Shown one piece after another: positions 1 to 8,920 of a stretch of 64,000 nucleotides of DNA. The notes beneath the pieces are model-generated. The model searched no databases. It saw only the letters and a program-made list of their open reading frames with translations, and was not told the origin of the DNA. Source of the stretch: Aggregatilinea lenta (lineage in GTDB: Bacteria > Chloroflexota > Anaerolineae > Aggregatilineales > Aggregatilineaceae); assembly GCF_003569045.1 (NCBI RefSeq), contig NZ_BFCB01000001.1, forward strand, positions 62,001 to 126,000, given 5' to 3'. Position 1 is the stretch's first letter. Each line of letters opens with the position of its first letter. A program made the translations under genes and the position numbers.

Positions 1-677
1 CGCAAGTTTGAGGGCATGCTGGGCGCGACGACGCCCGCCACTTCCTGCTGTTCCGCGATGGCAAGGTCGCGCTTGGTGAGCGGATCGGGGCTGATGACCA
101 CCACGCGACGGTATTCCGAAATACGCATGTCGATCTGGTTCAGACCGGTGAAGCCGTCTTCCGGCAGAAAGCGGAACGTCTCGAACCCCAGGCGGCCATT
201 CCCCCACGCGCACTGGATCAGCGCGCCCGTGGTGGAGATGAGCACGGTGTTATTTTCCGCCTGCTCGACCTGCCCCGGAATGCCCGCGAACACCTCGACC
301 GAGCGCTCGATCGTCTGCAGCACGATCTCCGCGCCCTCGACGCGCGTCACCTGCCCGTCGACGGGCGAGACGACCGTCTTCATACGGCGGCCCCGGCCTC
401 GCTGGGCGAGCACCTGCCCCGTCTCGACGTGCTGGCCCTCACGGACCTGCATATAGCTCGCCAGTTGGACCGGATCGGTGACGTTCTTGGCGATGCCGCT
501 GATGTCGACCGTGTGCAGCGCGCCCAATACCTCGCCTTGCAGCACGGCCTGGAACGCCTCGACGTTCATGCGCGGGGTCGCCTGCATCTCGCGCAGAACG
601 ACGCCCGGCGGCAGCCTGCGCTCGCGCTGCACCCGCGCGAGGCCCATCACGATCGACGTTTCAGGATAGTACGGCAT
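1..677 (-). CDS. Biotinyl/lipoyl-like domain protein, 3' end beyond window
   Basis: This is an open frame read leftward from ATG at 677 with no stop before the window edge, so about 225 residues are visible. It starts MPYYPETSIVMGLARVQ. Residues about 60-120 have the spacing of a biotinyl/lipoyl hammerhead fold (VREGQHVETGQVLAQ, then VVSPVDGQVTRVEG), but no MKM biotinylation motif is present, so covalent modification is doubtful. The start codon lies inside the last codons of the MutL-like gene, a 17-base overlap that implies translational coupling. It is the last visible member of the leftward operon. The role is unknown; a periplasmic-adaptor-like or assembly role is only a guess. Confidence 0.75.
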   Translation of the reverse strand, partial: MPYYPETSIVMGLARVQRERRLPPGVVLREMQATPRMNVEAFQAVLQGEVLGALHTVDISGIAKNVTDPVQLASYMQVREGQHVETGQVLAQRGRGRRMKTVVSPVDGQVTRVEGAEIVLQTIERSVEVFAGIPGQVEQAENNTVLISTTGALIQCAWGNGRLGFETFRFLPEDGFTGLNQIDMRISEYRRVVVISPDPLTKRDLAIAEQQEVAGVVAPSMPSNL

Positions 678-2460
678 GGGCCGCGTCCTCCTGGGGCGCC
701 AGCACTTCTTCACCCGGCTCGTCCGGGGCGACATCGCCGCCGGTCATGGCCGCCAGCCAGCGCTCGAAGCGCGCCACCCGCTCTTTGGGGCGCGGCAGCG
801 CCAGTGGACGTCCGCGCGCGTCGAAGATGATGCCCGCCGCGCCCGCCACCACGTGCAGCTTGAGCCGCCGCTTGCCGTTGATCGACAGGCCGCGCCGCAG
901 CTTGATCGACACATTGCAGACCATGCCGGGCGACACGGGAGCCATCCAGATCTCGCCGCCGCGCACGGTGTGCGTGATCGTCCGGCCCGACGCCGGGCGG
1001 ATCTGCACGGTCATCGCGCTCTGGCCGTTCCGCGCCGCGCCCAGCGGACTGAACGCCGTCGCCAGCGGCAGCAGCGCGTCGCCGTCCAGCATCTGCACGG
1101 TGATGATCGGCTTGAGATAGGCCGCCACACCCAGACCGGACAGCAGGTTGTACGGGTCCAGCCGCAGCTCGGTGATACCCACCGGCTGGAGCGCGTCCAG
1201 CAGCAACATGGCCGACACGCCGGGATGCTGCGCGTCGGTCAGCACCGCACCCGCCGCGATCACCGGGCTAAACGCGGGCGGCAGGTCGCCGCGTCCCAGG
1301 CCCCACTCGGCGCGCGACCCGCGCACCATGCGCCGCACGATCTCGCGCGCGACCGCCTGCTCGATCATCAGATCGCGCGGGCTGCCGGGCACGGTCGCCG
1401 GGCGCAGCGCCTTGTTATGCGCGTAATCCCACAGCTCGTCGTCGGTCACGTCCGGCGGCAGCCACTTACGCAGCGTGTCGAGCTTGAGCGTGTCGAGGGT
1501 ATCAACGAGGCTGTGGCCGATGCCCAGCCCGGTATGGACCGAAAAGCGTGTCTCTTTGTGCACGCCCGCGACGAGCGCGCTGTTGGTGCTGCCAATGTCC
1601 ACCACCAGCGGGCCAACACCGCGCCGGGGCAGCTCCGTGAGGTAGCGCACCGCGCTGATCGTGCCCTGCACCGTCGGCACGATGCCGATTGGGCTATAGC
1701 GCGCGACCTCGGCAAAGCCGCCGGGCTGGTGGCTGCGGAAATCGTCGTAGGCCAGGGACAGTTCGATCTGCGCGGGGAACACCTGCTCCTCGCGCATGTC
1801 AGGGCGCACGTTAGGCGCGTAGAACATCGCCGCGCGCGTCGAGAGCAGGCGTTTGATCTGCGGGCGCAGCGCGCGGTTGCCCGCGTACAGCACGCTCGGC
1901 GGCTGGCCGCGCATCGCCATCAGCGCGTCACGTACGGTCCCGGCCATGTCGAGCACGAGCGATTCCGTGCCCTCGTCGGTGCCGCCCGCGATCAGGATCA
2001 GGTCGGGGTGGGCGCTGAGGATAGCGCTGATACGCTGGTCGGGTGTGCGGCCATCGTAGGGGCTGATCGTGTCGACCACGGTCACGGGGCTGCCCGCCAG
2101 GACGTGCCGGGCGCTGGCGAGGCTCATTTCGGGCGTGAGGCCCGCCACCAGCACGCGTCCGGGTCGCCCCGCGCTGGCCGTCGCCAGGAACTGATCGACG
2201 CCGTGGCCGTTGGCTTCGGGCATCAGGAAGGGACTTTCGGAGCCGGGCACGATCAGGGTGCGCCCGGTCGCGGCGGTAATCTGCTGCGCCGCGCGGTCCA
2301 GGCCGATGCCGACGCTGCCCAGGGGCGCTTCCGCCGTGGTGCGCACGCGCGCCCCGGCCACGAAGCGATACTGTCCTTCGACCACGTCGACCAGCGCCAG
2401 GCGCGTATGCACGCTGCCGATGTCGGCCAACAGGATCGAGTTGACGTGCTCAAACGCCAT
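661..2460 (-). CDS. Glutamate mutase L (MutL)-like ASKHA protein
   Basis: The 599-residue product has two ASKHA-type phosphate loops, LLADIGSVHTR near residue 10 and LVVDIGSTNSA near residue 290, and an internal LIAGGTDEGTES stretch typical of the MutL family. That family is named after a gene next to clostridial glutamate mutase and is thought to act as an ATPase or reactivating chaperone. No B12 mutase subunits (MutS, MutE) are visible here, so the mutase role is not supported by context. It instead sits in an operon of membrane proteins, 6 bases after a polytopic one and overlapping the lipoyl-like gene by 17 bases. Family assignment is fairly firm; function is open. Confidence 0.8.
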   Translation of the reverse strand: MAFEHVNSILLADIGSVHTRLALVDVVEGQYRFVAGARVRTTAEAPLGSVGIGLDRAAQQITAATGRTLIVPGSESPFLMPEANGHGVDQFLATASAGRPGRVLVAGLTPEMSLASARHVLAGSPVTVVDTISPYDGRTPDQRISAILSAHPDLILIAGGTDEGTESLVLDMAGTVRDALMAMRGQPPSVLYAGNRALRPQIKRLLSTRAAMFYAPNVRPDMREEQVFPAQIELSLAYDDFRSHQPGGFAEVARYSPIGIVPTVQGTISAVRYLTELPRRGVGPLVVDIGSTNSALVAGVHKETRFSVHTGLGIGHSLVDTLDTLKLDTLRKWLPPDVTDDELWDYAHNKALRPATVPGSPRDLMIEQAVAREIVRRMVRGSRAEWGLGRGDLPPAFSPVIAAGAVLTDAQHPGVSAMLLLDALQPVGITELRLDPYNLLSGLGVAAYLKPIITVQMLDGDALLPLATAFSPLGAARNGQSAMTVQIRPASGRTITHTVRGGEIWMAPVSPGMVCNVSIKLRRGLSINGKRRLKLHVVAGAAGIIFDARGRPLALPRPKERVARFERWLAAMTGGDVAPDEPGEEVLAPQEDAAHAVLS

Positions 2461-2466
2461 GCGCGC

Positions 2467-3144
2467 CTATCCCCCTATCCGGTCGAGAATGAATTGGAGC
2501 TGCTCGCGGATCACGTCGCCGAAGACGGTCATACTGGTCAGGATCACCCCGCCGTAGAGCACGCCGAGCGTCACCGTGACGAACAACTGGCCGACCGCGC
2601 CCAACGCGCGGAACGGCCACGGACGCTGCCCGGTGCTCGCGCGGCGCGCGCCCAGGTACTGAAACGCCAGCAGCGTGGTGATCACGCCGACCAGCAGCAC
2701 CACGCCATCCACTGCATCGTCGCCGAGCGTGGCGCTCGTGTCGCGCGCGAGCGGGATGATCGTGCCCGCCACCGCGCCAACCAGCGCGACCGCCGTGCCG
2801 ACGCCGATCACCACCGCCAGCCCCAGGTTGCCCACCGGGGCGAGGCGCGGCGAGAACTTGAACAGCAGCAGCGCGCCAAACAGCAGCGGCAACGCGCCCG
2901 CGAGACGCACCGCAGTGATTTCGACAGAGGTAAGGTCGCCCTGCACGGCGAACAGCGTGTGGTCGAACCAGGGGATCAGCACCGTCTCGACCGCGACGAC
3001 GGCCACGTAGCCCGCCGCCACGCCGACCAGCACGTGCACCGCCAGCCGGTACAGCACGTTGTCGCCCAGCAGATAGCTGAACACCAGCACGGTCAGCACG
3101 AGCGAAACCCACCCGGCGATGAGATCGAGGTCCCCAGGCGTCAC
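2467..3144 (-). CDS. Polytopic membrane protein, unknown function
   Basis: The 225-residue product is mostly hydrophobic, with about six predicted membrane segments (for example LDLIAGWVSLVLTVLVFSYL near the N terminus and FVTVTLGVLYGGVILTSM near the C terminus). It starts at GTG 3144, whose bases overlap the TGA of the upstream acidic protein in a GTGA arrangement, so the two are translationally coupled. I recognise no family. The operon context suggests it is part of a membrane assembly with the acidic tryptophan-motif protein and the DUF6754-like protein. Confidence 0.8.
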   Translation of the reverse strand: MTPGDLDLIAGWVSLVLTVLVFSYLLGDNVLYRLAVHVLVGVAAGYVAVVAVETVLIPWFDHTLFAVQGDLTSVEITAVRLAGALPLLFGALLLFKFSPRLAPVGNLGLAVVIGVGTAVALVGAVAGTIIPLARDTSATLGDDAVDGVVLLVGVITTLLAFQYLGARRASTGQRPWPFRALGAVGQLFVTVTLGVLYGGVILTSMTVFGDVIREQLQFILDRIGG

Positions 3145-6100
3145 GAGCGTCCCCTCCGAACGAGCGCACGGAACAGGTTAATGATGAGGCCCAGCGCGAT
3201 CAGCCCGGCAGCCAGCGCCGCGCCTAACGCGGTGCTGTTCCACCGTGCCGCGTCGAGGTCGGGCAGGTCGAAGCCGAGGTCGTCGGGCGGCGAATAGGGC
3301 GTGCGCGTCTCGGCGTTCTGCGCCGCGTCGTAGCTGCGTGTGTCGCGGTACCCGGCCAGATAGCCCAGGTAGCCGTCGTCGTTGACGTAGCTGGACGCCA
3401 GCGGCTCGATGGCCGCCGTCACCAGCGCGACCATCGGCACTCTCGCGTCGCCCATCTGCTCGGCCCAGCGCCGCACGTCGTCGGACGACTCGCCCACGAC
3501 CACGATCAGCGCGACGTCATCCGCCACGTCCAGATTCAGGCCGGTCGCCTCGCCGTCGATGTCGGTCACGAACGGCGACGGCAGCGCCAGCGGATGGTCC
3601 TCATCCGCGCCACGCAGGGCACGCACGCCGGTCGCGTCGCCGGGAATATAGCCGAGCAGGTAATAGTCCTGGCCCGCTTCCAGCGCCGTTTCGTTCTTGT
3701 CGCGCACGTCCAGCAGCCGCTCGTCCGTCGCCAGCGGCGCGATTACGGCGCGGGCATGCAGCGCGCCCGCGATGTCCGTGCCGGTCGTCAGCGGGATGGC
3801 GCGGTGTGCCAGCACGTCGCGCAACACGGCCTCCAGCAGCGGATCGAGTTCCCCGGCGGCAGTCGGGCCATATTCCAGCGCGACCAGCACGGTGTCGCCC
3901 GCGTCCAGCGCGGCGACGGCATCCGCGACGGCCTGCCGGTCCCCGCTGAGCGCGGGCGGATCGGCGGCGAAGTGCAGGGCGTCGGTGGCAAAGGGCGCGA
4001 TCAGCCCGGCCAGCAGCACCAGCACGATCAGTACACGGTCGAGCTTGAAGCGGCGCACCCGGCGGCGGTGTGCGCGCGGCGCGACTTCTTCCAGCGCGGC
4101 GGCCTCCTCCTCCAGGCTCGTGAACATTTCCGGCTCGCGCAGGTCCTCGTCGATGACGTCGTCGCCCGCCGCCGCATCGAGCATACGCCGCAGGCGGTCG
4201 GCGCGCGTCTGTTGGTCGCGCGTGACGGCCAAACCCATCACCGGGGGCACGGTGCGCGGAATCGCCAGATCGAACGGCGACAGCGCGCCCGCGATCCCGG
4301 CCAGCGGCCCCGATTCGGACGCGGGCGCAGGCTTCGGCGGCTGGCTCAGGTCGCGCAGCGTCGTCTCGCGGAAAACCTGAAGCTGGTCCGGCAGGTCGAT
4401 CACCGGGAGCTGCTCGACATCCACGGACACGCCGCCCGCGCGCACCGTTACCGGCACCTCGGACGGGCGCAGCTCCGCGACCCAGTCCGGCTGGAACGCT
4501 GCGTCGGCGGAAGTACCCACCTCGGCCAGCGGCGTCTCGGTCGGTGGGGCGGCTTCAAAGGCGGACTGGGGGTCGGGCGGGAACAGGTCGTCCACGCCCG
4601 GCGCGGCCTGCGCGTCGTGCCCCGGCGGCAGCGGGAACAGGTCGTCGACCGTCGGCAGCGCCGCGTCGTCGAGCAGCGCTTCGAAGTCCGGCTCGACGCC
4701 CTCTTCGGCTTCATGGGGATCGGGCGTGCCGAAGATTTCCCACACGTCGGCGGGTTCTTCAAGCCGCAGTTCCGGCGGCAGCTCGTCTTCTTCGACCGGC
4801 TCCGGTTCGGGCAGCGGCGCAGGCTCCGGCGGCGGCGTATACAGGCTCAGCAGGCTGTCGATGTCCACCTCGTCGCCGGCCTGCGGCGCTTCGGACGCGC
4901 GGGTCTCGGTCGCCTGCGGCGTTTCGGGTTCCGTTCCCGGCTCCGGCACGACGTCCTCGGACGAAATGCCGGACAGCCAGTCCAGGCCGCCTTCGTCGCC
5001 GCCCCGTGGCGCGGAGGCCATCGGCTGCTCGCTCGTCACGCGGGATGGTTCTTCGCCCTCATTGAGCGTACGGAGCCAGTCGGGCGCGTTCTCGTCCAGC
5101 GGCGTGGCCGCCTGCGGATCGAAGCGCTCCACAAAATCGCTGGCCGGTTCTTCCTCGGACTCTGCCGGTGGGACGAAGTCGGCCATCCACGCTTCGAGTT
5201 CTTCCTCGGTGTCGCCGGTGGGCATCTCCTGGTCCAGTTCAAGCTCTGGGAAGGGGATGTCTTCCGGCCCGGCGATCGCGTCCGCACCGGGGAACACCGG
5301 TTCTTCCTCGTCGATGAGTTCCGGCTCGATCTCCACGCCAAACTGCGCGGCGAGGCTTTCCTCCTTGGGAGGTTCGGCCACCGACAGCTCGCTGGCAGCG
5401 AGTTGGTCGCCAAACAGCGCATCGAAGTCCAGTTCAGCAGCGAGTTCAGGCTCCGCCGCTTCTTCCGGCGCGGCCCCGAACAGCGCTTCAAGATCCATTT
5501 CGGGAATCTCACCGGCGGGCGCGAACTCGGCTTCCGGCTCGACGTGGAACAGCTCGGACAGATCCGGCTGCGGTTCCTCGGCAGTGGGCGCTTCGGCCTC
5601 GGCTTCCGGCGCGGGCGGCTCAATACCGAACGGCAGCGGCACCTCCGGCTCTGAAGCAGGCGGCTTGATGTCGAACGGCAGCGGCAGCTCCGGTTCGGGC
5701 GTCTCGGGCGCGGCGGGGGCAGGCTCGTGCTCGGCCTGCTCGGACAGACGCTTGAGCGGGGACGTCCCCGCGACCTCTTGCTCGGCGGGCGCTTCGAAAG
5801 CCGACCAATCGATCTGGTCCGCATCTGGCGGGTTCAGACCCATGAACCAGTCGGGCAGCTCGCTGCCGGACGAGGGTAGATCGGTGGGCGCGGCGGGCAC
5901 GTCGGGCGCAGGCTGCGCCAGATCGCCGCCGGAGTAGTCGATCTCCTGGAACCAATCCGGCGCTTCCTCGACGCTCTGCTCTTCGAGGCCCATGAACCAG
6001 CCGGGCACGAACTCCTGCTCGGCCTGTTCGTCCGGCGCGGCAGGGGCTTCGGACTGCGGCGGCTGGCCTTCCAGCCCGGAAAACCAGTCCGGCACCTCTT

Positions 6101-7169
6101 CCAACATGCGTTCTTCGGGCGTCTTCTGCGCCTCGCGCGCTGCCTCGGATTGTTCTTCTTCCCATGCGTCGAAGGTCAGGCCCGGCGCAGCGGGCGCTTC
6201 CGGCTCTTCGTCCGCAGACAGCACCCATTCCGGTAGGTGCTCCCCGGCGGACGGCTCCTCAACCGGCGCGTCGCTGACGGGCGGCTCGGCAGGGGGCTGC
6301 ACCCAGCCGGGAATCTCCGGCTCGGCGAGCGGTTCGCCGCTGCCCTGCATCCAATCCGGCAGCGATTCGCCGTCCGTGACGTTGAGCTGCTGGGCCTCGC
6401 GCAGCCAGTCGGGCAGCACACCGGGCGCGGGAACGTCCGCTTCTTCGGCGGCGTCTTCGGTTCCGGCACCGTGCAGCGCATCCAGCAGGCCGAAATCAGC
6501 TTCGTCCGGCCAGGACAATTCGCCCTCGCCGGAAAGCGCCTCTAAATCGCCGGACGGCGGCGTCAGGTCGCCCGGCTGAAACTCCGGCACGGCGTTGAAC
6601 GTGTCTTCCTGAAGCCATGCGCCCAGCAGATCGTGCACGGGCGTTTCGGGTTCAGGCGTGGTGGGCGTCTCCGGTGCGAATTCGGGCGCTGCGGATTCAG
6701 GCGGCGGGGCCATCTCGGCCAGCCAGTCGGGTAGGCCGCTGGGCGCGGGGATGCCGGGCTTGTCGTCCGCTTCCGGTTCTGCTGCCATCTCGGAGAGCCA
6801 ATCGAGGTCGCCCTCCGTGGCCGCAGGCACGGCGGGCGTCGGGGTCGGCGTGCCGCTCAGCCGCTCGTCGAAAAAGGCCGCGTCGCTGCTCCACTCCTCC
6901 AGCAGATCGTCCAGGGGCGTGTCGCCGGGTTCCGGCTCGCCGGAGAGATCGTCGTCCAGCCAGGGCAAATCGGAAAGCGCGTCGCGTCGCAGGTCCTCTT
7001 CGGCGCTGCTCGATGGACGGGTCCGGCCCGGCTCGCGCGCCCATTCCGAGGCAGGCGGCAGCCCTTGATCGGTGTCCGATGTCTCGCCCGGTGCGCTCTC
7101 GTCCGGATCGTCTTTCATCCAATCCGGGAGGAGGCTGTCGTCGTCAAAAGGATTAAAGTCGTCCGGCAT
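3141..7169 (-). CDS. Giant acidic protein with tryptophan short-motif repeats and C-terminal membrane anchor
   Basis: The 1342-residue product starts MPDDFNPFDDDSLLPDWMKDD. Residues 1 to about 900 are Glu/Asp/Pro/Ala-rich and look disordered. They carry about eighteen short motifs of the form (L/V/I/A)-(P/D)-(D/G/E)-W-(L/M/F/V), such as LPDWM, LPDWL, VPDWF, IPGWV, LPEWV and LDWLS. A basic stretch (RAHRRRVRRFK) precedes a membrane segment near residue 1050. About 250 residues of a mixed alpha/beta-looking domain follow, then a second membrane segment near 1310-1330 and RRGRS at the end. The topology therefore suggests a cytoplasmic acidic tail and an outside domain between two helices. I recognise no function. 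The repeated motifs look like docking sites for a partner. Confidence 0.85.
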   Translation of the reverse strand: MPDDFNPFDDDSLLPDWMKDDPDESAPGETSDTDQGLPPASEWAREPGRTRPSSSAEEDLRRDALSDLPWLDDDLSGEPEPGDTPLDDLLEEWSSDAAFFDERLSGTPTPTPAVPAATEGDLDWLSEMAAEPEADDKPGIPAPSGLPDWLAEMAPPPESAAPEFAPETPTTPEPETPVHDLLGAWLQEDTFNAVPEFQPGDLTPPSGDLEALSGEGELSWPDEADFGLLDALHGAGTEDAAEEADVPAPGVLPDWLREAQQLNVTDGESLPDWMQGSGEPLAEPEIPGWVQPPAEPPVSDAPVEEPSAGEHLPEWVLSADEEPEAPAAPGLTFDAWEEEQSEAAREAQKTPEERMLEEVPDWFSGLEGQPPQSEAPAAPDEQAEQEFVPGWFMGLEEQSVEEAPDWFQEIDYSGGDLAQPAPDVPAAPTDLPSSGSELPDWFMGLNPPDADQIDWSAFEAPAEQEVAGTSPLKRLSEQAEHEPAPAAPETPEPELPLPFDIKPPASEPEVPLPFGIEPPAPEAEAEAPTAEEPQPDLSELFHVEPEAEFAPAGEIPEMDLEALFGAAPEEAAEPELAAELDFDALFGDQLAASELSVAEPPKEESLAAQFGVEIEPELIDEEEPVFPGADAIAGPEDIPFPELELDQEMPTGDTEEELEAWMADFVPPAESEEEPASDFVERFDPQAATPLDENAPDWLRTLNEGEEPSRVTSEQPMASAPRGGDEGGLDWLSGISSEDVVPEPGTEPETPQATETRASEAPQAGDEVDIDSLLSLYTPPPEPAPLPEPEPVEEDELPPELRLEEPADVWEIFGTPDPHEAEEGVEPDFEALLDDAALPTVDDLFPLPPGHDAQAAPGVDDLFPPDPQSAFEAAPPTETPLAEVGTSADAAFQPDWVAELRPSEVPVTVRAGGVSVDVEQLPVIDLPDQLQVFRETTLRDLSQPPKPAPASESGPLAGIAGALSPFDLAIPRTVPPVMGLAVTRDQQTRADRLRRMLDAAAGDDVIDEDLREPEMFTSLEEEAAALEEVAPRAHRRRVRRFKLDRVLIVLVLLAGLIAPFATDALHFAADPPALSGDRQAVADAVAALDAGDTVLVALEYGPTAAGELDPLLEAVLRDVLAHRAIPLTTGTDIAGALHARAVIAPLATDERLLDVRDKNETALEAGQDYYLLGYIPGDATGVRALRGADEDHPLALPSPFVTDIDGEATGLNLDVADDVALIVVVGESSDDVRRWAEQMGDARVPMVALVTAAIEPLASSYVNDDGYLGYLAGYRDTRSYDAAQNAETRTPYSPPDDLGFDLPDLDAARWNSTALGAALAAGLIALGLIINLFRALVRRGRS

Positions 7170-7201
7170 AAAGTCCTGCTCTCAAATCGGACAACGCCCG
7201 A

Positions 7202-7855
7202 TTAACTGCGGTATGAGCGATCCTGGCCGACCAGGACCCGCACGCCGACCGCCAGCGTGCCCAGCGCGACGCCGATCAAAATACCGCGCACGCCGGCGCC
7301 CGCAGGCACGCGCACCAGCCAGTCGTGCACGTCGGCCAGCGTATCGGCGTCTTCCAGCGGAATCCACGTCACCAGCACGGCGATCACCGCGAGGCTGAAG
7401 ATCACGCTCCAGATCGTCACGCGGCGGCGCATCAGGCGATAGGCGGCATACACCAGGAAGAACAGCAGCAGCGCGGCCAGCGCCGATTCCAGGCTGACCT
7501 GGACCGACTCGAACACGCGCAGGCTCATGCGCTCGCCTTCCAGATCGCCGGACCACACGTCCAGGCGATCCAGCACGCGCAGCGCGATCACGCCCGCCGC
7601 CGACAGCACCACGATCACGCTGTAGAACCAGCCGCGCCCGCGCCCGCCCACGCGCGCCAGGTGCACCACTAATAAATTGAGCACGCCGATCAGCACGGCC
7701 ACCGCCGCCACGACCGCCACGATCTGCACCAGGAACGACGCGACGCTCGCTTCCGCCGATCCCGGCTCACTGAGCAGCCCGACCAGCGTCACGATCCCAG
7801 CGCTGATCACGGTGACAGTCGCCAGCAGGTTCAGCAAGCAGTGGGGTTTCCTCAC
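7202..7855 (-). CDS. Polytopic membrane protein, unknown function
   Basis: The product is about 217 residues with about five or six membrane segments. I chose GTG 7855 (VRKPHCLLNLLATVTVIS) because a GAGGTCAG ribosome-binding site lies just upstream. The open frame continues further upstream only through the neighbouring gene in another frame. A hydrophilic loop (DVWSGDLEGERMSLRVFES) between segments may be outside the cytoplasm. The gene lies 44 bases after the DUF6754-like gene and 32 bases before the acidic tryptophan-motif gene, so it is most likely in the same transcript. No family is recognised. Confidence 0.7.
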   Translation of the reverse strand: MRKPHCLLNLLATVTVISAGIVTLVGLLSEPGSAEASVASFLVQIVAVVAAVAVLIGVLNLLVVHLARVGGRGRGWFYSVIVVLSAAGVIALRVLDRLDVWSGDLEGERMSLRVFESVQVSLESALAALLLFFLVYAAYRLMRRRVTIWSVIFSLAVIAVLVTWIPLEDADTLADVHDWLVRVPAGAGVRGILIGVALGTLAVGVRVLVGQDRSYRS

Positions 7856-7899
7856 ACCTGACCTCTTGTCTTTTTTGTCGTTACATCTGGCGTGCGGCG

Positions 7900-8646
7900 C
7901 TACAGGGCTTCTTGCAGCGCGGCGACCACGATCGCGATGATAACCGCCCAACGCAGCACGTCCAGCGCGACCACGCCGCCCACATCCACGGGACGTCCGT
8001 CGATGTAGGCCGCCCCAGCATATAACTCTTCCCCGATCAGCACGCGGTCGGCCTGGGCAAACGCCACCGCCTGCCCCTCGACCAGATCGCTGTGCGCGAT
8101 CAATCGCTGGTCGTGGCGCACCGCGCTCGCGCCGAACAACGCCAGCTCCGCGCCAAACTGGCCCAGCAGCACCGACGTGCTCACGTCCGCGTCCGCCGCC
8201 AGGCTGCTTGCGCCTGCCGCAAATGCCAGTGAGCGCCGCCCCTGCGGGAACCATGCCGCCGCGCGCAGCCGGTAGGCATCCTGGCGCTGGCGATAGGTGT
8301 ACGCGCGGCGCAGCGTATCCTGCGCGAGCGGCAGAGTCAGCGGTGCGCTGAGCGTGATCAGCGGCGATCGCGCGCCGACCGCCAACCGCGACGACAGGCG
8401 ATAAATCAAGTCGGCAGAAGCCAGGGCGCTGACAGTGCTCAACTGGCCGAGCGCCGCGCTGCCGGTCGAAAAGTGCACGGCGTGATCGCTTTCGACCGCG
8501 TCCGCGATCAGGTCGGGCAGCAGGCTGTAAGCCGCGATGGGGCGCAGCACGGGCGTACGCCGCCGCGCCAGCAGCGCGCCGATCAGCGTCGCGGCCAGTG
8601 TCACGGCCAGGAGGACCCAGGTGATCTCGCTATTCGTCATCGTCAT
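7900..8646 (-). CDS. DUF6754-like membrane protein
   Basis: The 248-residue product has one N-terminal membrane helix (ITWVLLAVTLAATLIGALLA) followed by RRR, a soluble middle domain of about 180 residues, and a C-terminal hydrophobic helix (LRWAVIIAIVVAALQ). The middle domain (DLIADAVESDHAVHFSTGSAAL, then SADLIYRLSSRLAVGARSPLI) resembles the uncharacterised DUF6754 family as I remember it, which a profile search should confirm. Its start overlaps the 3' end of the upstream small gene by 17 bases. Nothing in the sequence reveals a catalytic motif. Confidence 0.75.
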   Translation of the reverse strand: MTMTNSEITWVLLAVTLAATLIGALLARRRTPVLRPIAAYSLLPDLIADAVESDHAVHFSTGSAALGQLSTVSALASADLIYRLSSRLAVGARSPLITLSAPLTLPLAQDTLRRAYTYRQRQDAYRLRAAAWFPQGRRSLAFAAGASSLAADADVSTSVLLGQFGAELALFGASAVRHDQRLIAHSDLVEGQAVAFAQADRVLIGEELYAGAAYIDGRPVDVGGVVALDVLRWAVIIAIVVAALQEAL

Positions 8647-8920
8647 CCGGCCCCATCAACAAATGGTGGCGAACCTGCTCCAGGCCGCCCGGCTGCTCCA
8701 GGACGCGCGCCAGCGCCGCCACGTCGTCGCGCGGGACGAACAGCCCCAGCGCCGGCTGCGCGATCCACAGCAGGTGCGCCCCCAACGGCGCAAGCGGTGC
8801 GCCCGCGTCCAGCAGCGCATCCACAACTCCGTCGAGACGCAAACGACGCAGGTCGCCGGACCACTGTTCCCAGCGGCGCGACCAGCGTTCGTCGGTGAGC
8901 GGCGCGTTTATTGGTTCCAT
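8630..8920 (-). CDS. Small conserved-looking protein, first gene of the leftward operon
   Basis: The product is 96 residues from ATG 8920 (MEPINAPLTDERWSRRW), ending in an acidic tail (GPDDDDE). I prefer this start over the longer frame from 8944 because a TATACT element sits between the two, so the longer form would begin upstream of the likely transcript start. The 3' end overlaps the DUF6754-like start by 17 bases, which suggests coupled translation. It is soluble and I recognise no family. Confidence 0.6.
   Translation of the reverse strand: MEPINAPLTDERWSRRWEQWSGDLRRLRLDGVVDALLDAGAPLAPLGAHLLWIAQPALGLFVPRDDVAALARVLEQPGGLEQVRHHLLMGPDDDDE

Follow-up and report, generated by a model that had tools for sequence, protein, structure and literature searches.

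We propose, at a probability of about one half, that seven same-strand genes (g1-g7) at one end of G000:C1:62001-126000, a 64,000-nucleotide stretch of a Chloroflexota genome of 6.2 Mb (hereafter the window), form an operon encoding one envelope-spanning scaffold, confined, within the reach of the tools used, to walled Chloroflexota, in which g6, a MutL-branch ASKHA protein, and g7, a barrel-sandwich/KOW protein, act on the W-motif tail of a large acidic membrane protein, g4. The closest named relatives of the genome are Anaerolineae and Thermoflexus. All seven genes lie on the minus strand and run from position 8920 leftward past position 1. The original prediction, made from the window alone, had reported seven same-strand genes with overlaps of 17 and 4 bases. 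We confirmed this arrangement (17 bases for g1/g2, 4 bases for g4/g5) and added a 14-base overlap of g6 and g7; because of these overlaps, translational coupling is suggested for all three pairs.

Gene order in other Chloroflexota had been named as a check on the idea of a shared machine, and in the related genomes compared the order was kept, not scattered. DUF6754, the family of g2, was present in 67 of the 301 genomes of our phylum sample, as a single copy in each. We read stretches of at most 20 kb surrounding 20 of these DUF6754 genes. Every stretch uncut by a contig end kept the order and orientation g2-g3-g4-g5-g6, with identity dropping to 20-35%, and g1 homologues occupied the equivalent position in most full operons. 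At closer range (55-65% identity), the order g1-g9 was identical in eight contigs as far as each contig extends. Three of the operon-bearing genomes are probably those of Chloroflexus aurantiacus J-10-fl, Herpetosiphon aurantiacus, and Roseiflexus RS-1.

The giant acidic, membrane-anchored W-motif protein of the original prediction is g4, which contains 25% aspartate plus glutamate over residues 1-1030. The motif [LVIMF]PxW[LMFIV] was observed 9 times in g4, against 0.14 expected from shuffled sequences, and the count reaches 38 elsewhere. We scanned 945 open reading frames (ORFs) of at least 100 amino acids, taken from the window and the fetched loci, and 52 of them contained at least two copies. 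All but one of the 52 were g4, a positional equivalent of it, or g6 itself; the sole such ORF outside the module was L047:14675. Within the DNA examined, the LPxWL motif is thus practically private to the module. LPDWL-type motifs were also seen in the C-terminal tail of g6 itself (L045:2823-4964 and L048:1939-4116). Hydropathy and the distribution of positive charges place the g2 domain and the W-motif part of g4 inside the cell, and the C-terminal domain of g4 and most of g8, a neighboring gene product, outside. Conserved order, co-occurrence, and this predicted topology strengthen the earlier proposal of one membrane assembly; we infer the physical complex itself, as well as ATP use, the role of the W motif as a docking site, and the process served.

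The g6 and g7 genes tended to occur together. Profile matches were found in 178 (g6) and 170 (g7) of the 301 genomes, with both in 165, g6 without g7 in 13, and g7 without g6 in 5 (Fisher p ~3e-61, uncorrected for shared ancestry). The two genes were normally adjacent in genomes where the positions of both were mapped. In families f24, f34, f60, and f63, g7 was retained but unlinked; in genome G118, for example, the two genes lie at 0.32 and 4.10 Mb. The association of g6 and g7 is therefore more than an inherited neighborhood. The g5 profile, run on 191 genomes, matched in 46, of which 45 also had g6; the exception was marginal (E=8e-4). In families without the full operon, g1-g3 and g5 were absent around g6-g7, and in most core-only loci read, the gene directly before g6 encoded a zinc-ribbon and/or LPxWL protein. 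The motif was borne by this protein in L061, L062, L065, L068, L069, L073, and L080, and a zinc ribbon without the W motif was found in L072 and L076. The conserved minimal unit is g6 plus g7 plus a W-motif/zinc-ribbon protein, and g1-g3 and g5 are lineage-dependent gains or losses.

The family assignments of the original prediction for g2 and g6 were borne out. The g2 protein is a clear member of DUF6754 (PF20539, E=4e-22, 79 bits; gathering score 27), a family without a described function, and g6 matched MutL (PF13941) with E=3e-54 and 185 bits (cut-off 27). The nucleotide motifs of g6 are intact (phosphate-1 DIGSVHT, phosphate-2 DIGSTNS, and adenosine-like AAGAVLT), and judged by these motifs it would have the ASKHA nucleotide-binding fold. 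The GlmL/MutL accessory proteins of glutamate mutase and Or-4 (PF13941, NF040745, and NF040744) belong to the same ASKHA branch and share the phosphate and GGTDG motifs. In contrast to them, g6 has no mutase, carries an added DARGRPL domain, scores far under the curated cut-offs, and accompanies g7 and a W-motif membrane scaffold. Therefore, a label of MutL/GlmL functional equivalent is not warranted, and naming g6 "MutL" or "glutamate mutase L" would mislead. A role as FtsA substitute was likewise rejected: a separate FtsA is encoded in 282 of the 301 genomes, including G000, and SHS2_FTSA (PF02491) was not among the Pfam matches of g6. FtsA and PilM resemble g6 by a works-like analogy only, as soluble ASKHA proteins encoded with membrane proteins, but neither was matched in the Pfam scan of g6.

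The "lipoyl-like" protein of the original prediction had to be redefined. The whole g7 gene (L002:9595-10674, 359 amino acids) encodes a multidomain protein with a barrel-sandwich domain and a C-terminal KOW domain, the latter encoded outside the window. We found no evidence of a lipoyl site: Biotin_lipoyl scored 13.7 bits versus a cut-off of 22.1, and Biotin_lipoyl_2 15.4 versus 29.8. Residues 57-122 match NQRA_N (E=2e-5) or RnfC_N. Like g7, NqrA and RnfC have an N-terminal barrel-sandwich domain, but the rest of NqrA or RnfC is unmatched in g7, which ends in the KOW domain, and the full-length NqrA equivalogs scored only 12-16 bits versus cut-offs of 321-505. The KOW assignment came both from profiles (SPT5, E=3e-4; Pfam KOW PF00467 in 5 of 16 members) and from the fold of the confidently modelled part (NusG, Z 8.8, root-mean-square deviation 1.5 over 53 residues), the list of structure matches covering the KOW part only. 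AlphaFold models were built from only 6-8 close homologues, and their mean predicted local distance difference test score (pLDDT) was 48 for g7, with the middle part below 50, and 39 for g2; neither gave a usable fold beyond the KOW part of g7. We set aside a profile match of g7 to lysozyme 5i8l (E=7e-10), which seems to stem from local WGNG similarity within a motif that is repeated.

Several observations weigh against the envelope-scaffold proposal or narrow it. No W motif was found in the proteins encoded upstream of g6 in L076 and L074, and the gene preceding g6 in L063, L064, L066, L067, L070, L071, and L079 is outside those identified as W-motif proteins. In the g6 tree, full-operon genomes are interspersed with core-only ones (7 changes), and the core therefore has no strict need of g1-g3 and g5. 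An alignment revealed degenerate ASKHA phosphate motifs in several g6 proteins from core-only loci among L061-L080. ATP use is therefore not universal, and the degenerate sequences suggest that pseudo-ATPase versions of the module may exist. The core was found in 0 of 31 genomes without a penicillin-binding protein (PBP) transpeptidase and in 165 of 270 with one, which points toward a walled envelope, with the qualification that the wall-less genomes are small and mostly related, leaving the correlation phylogenetically confounded. Many walled genomes have no core, and a wall can thus exist without it.

Considering that g6 falls in the MutL branch and that its relatives, going by their NCBIfam names, assist B12 mutases, it could be a reactivase for an adenosylcobalamin enzyme, as GlmL is for glutamate mutase, and the other operon genes could be incidental. 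However, no PF06368 (GlmE) match was found in the G000 genome, and real GlmE matches occurred in only four genomes (G089, G137, G176, and G178). Only G176 also had the core, that is, 1 of 165 core genomes. The relatives of g6 do not adjoin mutase subunits, the neighborhood that had been named as a test of the idea. True GlmL, in contrast, adjoins GlmE in G089 and G176. It stops near profile position 455 of 576 (L082/L084), is without the DARGRPL C-terminal domain, and together with the G178 protein forms a clade apart from g6. The score of g6 was 77 bits versus the curated GlmL equivalog cut-off of 475, and 46 versus 204 for the TIGR01319 subfamily. Based on the absence of GlmE, the sub-cut-off scores, the extra domain, and the separate clade, g6 was rejected as a glutamate mutase reactivase, and we regard the reactivase explanation as very unlikely; the earlier suggestion that g6 has another partner, no glutamate mutase being nearby, is strongly supported. 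In G176 (L082), the module and a true GlmL/GlmE pair coexist in one genome, a natural control for telling the two MutL-branch families apart. It also seems quite unlikely that the products constitute a membrane-docked nucleic-acid or ribosome-associated factor. The KOW domain at the C-terminus of g7, found by profile and by fold, and the zinc ribbon with which many W-proteins start would fit such a factor, but the KOW region of g7 has a net charge of -1, and g4 of the studied genome contains no CxxC pair and hence no zinc ribbon. KOW and SH3-like folds are also frequent among proteins without nucleic-acid binding.

A co-regulated neighborhood, in which g6, g7, and the W-protein make one unit and g1-g5 another, not one complex, is a plausible though rather doubtful alternative. 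In many families the core is present but g1-g3 and g5 are not, and the unlinked g7 genes described above fit this arrangement as well. On the other hand, g5 was found with g6 only, apart from the single marginal match, and g4 joins the two units, bearing both the W-motif part and the membrane and external part. A narrower form of the scaffold proposal, that the operon is the gliding or septal-channel machinery of filamentous Chloroflexota, appears unlikely. In its favor, the operon is present in the three genomes that are probably those of Chloroflexus aurantiacus, Herpetosiphon aurantiacus, and Roseiflexus RS-1, and the module is predicted to span the membrane and has a surface-type neighbor. 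Moreover, Chloroflexales are reported to have septal channels but no homologues of sepJ/fraC/fraD, and to be missing most of the type IV pilus genes (PMC7332563). Gliding of the filamentous members has been ascribed, tentatively, to Tad pili (PMC7332563). Yet the core also exists in families that may belong to Ktedonobacteria and other lineages not known to glide, so its basic role would be broader than gliding or septal channels, and no direct link to motility genes was found beyond weak hints, for example the receiver-domain gene beside g7 (L077/L078).

Under the envelope-scaffold proposal, the cytoplasmic pair of g6, as an ASKHA nucleotide switch, and g7, as a barrel-sandwich/KOW adaptor, would act on the multivalent W-motif tail of g4. 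The g4 protein would cross the membrane and display a folded domain outside, g2, g3, and g5 would form the membrane part, and g1 would be a small cytoplasmic accessory. In this order of bacteria, g8 may be a surface-exposed partner. FtsA and PilM are precedents for a soluble ASKHA protein recruiting membrane partners, and by analogy with them, g6/g7 might dock on the W-motif array in a nucleotide-dependent way and so gather the membrane complex into clusters or reset it. The system most likely serves the envelope or the surface, for instance in surface motility of filaments, cell-cell connection, or wall organization.

The positions of the individual features are collected in table 1.

Table 1. 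Operon genes and predicted parts, with window positions unless a locus (L002) is named.
Feature	Position	Strand	Description
g1	8630..8920	-	96 aa, acidic, soluble; overlaps g2 by 17 bases; no Pfam family
g2	7900..8646	-	248 aa, DUF6754; two transmembrane (TM) helices flanking a predicted cytoplasmic domain (positive-inside rule; alignment)
g3	7202..7855	-	217 aa, GTG start, polytopic, ~6 TM helices (topology prediction; alignment)
g4	3141..7169	-	1342 aa, acidic W-motif scaffold; predicted cytoplasmic disordered-looking part, TM helix, extracytoplasmic domain, TM helix
g4 motif array	5844..7130	-	nine [LVIMF]PxW[LMFIV] copies, residues 14-442, N-terminal third
g4 extracytoplasmic domain (predicted)	3228..3977	-	between both TM helices; W and Q invariant (alignment)
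g5	2467..3144	-	225 aa, polytopic, ~6 TM helices; overlaps g4 by 4 bases
g6	661..2460	-	599 aa, MutL-branch ASKHA protein
g6 C-terminal extra domain	736..1089	-	residues 458-575, DARGRPL signature
g7, 5' part	1..674	-	barrel-sandwich hybrid N-terminal region; overlaps g6 by 14 bases
g8	L002:7803-9539	same strand as g1-g7	578 aa, surface-type protein, left of the window edge

The same-strand gene series extends beyond the window to g8, behind which lies a conserved AAA/winged-helix gene. The g8 protein is composed of an acidic N-terminal tail, a transmembrane helix, a PPC/SpaA-like ectodomain, an LPxTG-like sequence, a C-terminal transmembrane helix, and a basic RKLR tail, and it is possibly the surface partner of the operon. 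Shorter g8 look-alikes were seen downstream of g7 in L049, L051-L053, and L058. After g8 follow an AAA ATPase with a winged-helix domain (L002:6126-7526) and a 1719-amino-acid protein (L002:839-5998) read by eye as a multi-GAF sensor kinase, and both kinds of gene are kept behind g8 in the close relatives L005-L010. These two proteins are candidate regulators of the operon. In the probable Chloroflexus and Herpetosiphon genomes (L077:5969-9804 and L078:7143-11214), the unlinked g7 lies near a receiver-domain protein, whose C-terminal part gave a weak hint of a Roadblock fold (PF08923, E=0.057), and in L077 a YkuD L,D-transpeptidase is also near g7.

Comparisons with databases and the literature identified no described relative of the whole system. 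No mention of DUF6754 was found in the papers searched. In sequence searches of the PDB, g2, g3, and a lone g6 sequence drew no match, whereas the matches of g5, the g6 profile, and the g4 external domain were all at chance level (E>0.1). Profile-profile comparisons indicated no relationship between g2 and the g4 external domain, between g7 and g2, or between g3 and g5. A defence system was rejected, PADLOC having no match for g2-g8 and only a weak one (mads_8, E=6e-4) for the neighboring AAA gene, and so was a phage system, PHROGs having none for g2, g6, g7, or the g4 external domain. In plasmid records from outside the phylum, g7 and g2 were unmatched, and g6 had weak GlmL-type matches only. 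The named parts (the MutL branch of ASKHA, barrel-sandwich, KOW, and zinc ribbon) are of known kinds, and no system like the gene combination with its private motif turned up in Pfam, NCBIfam, PADLOC, PHROGs, or the sequences of the PDB. Tentatively, we suggest a new Chloroflexota envelope machine, in which an ASKHA switch and a barrel-sandwich/KOW adaptor would work on the private LPxWL array that a transmembrane scaffold bears in many copies, possibly as the missing gliding or septal-channel apparatus in multicellular filaments.

If the envelope-scaffold proposal is true, a large share of Chloroflexota (165 of the 301 genomes, by the core) would carry an unstudied envelope assembly, built on a reused ASKHA protein of the B12-reactivase type together with a short linear motif that is new. 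Gene candidates would then also be at hand for open questions of the phylum, such as the septal channels without known genes (PMC7332563).

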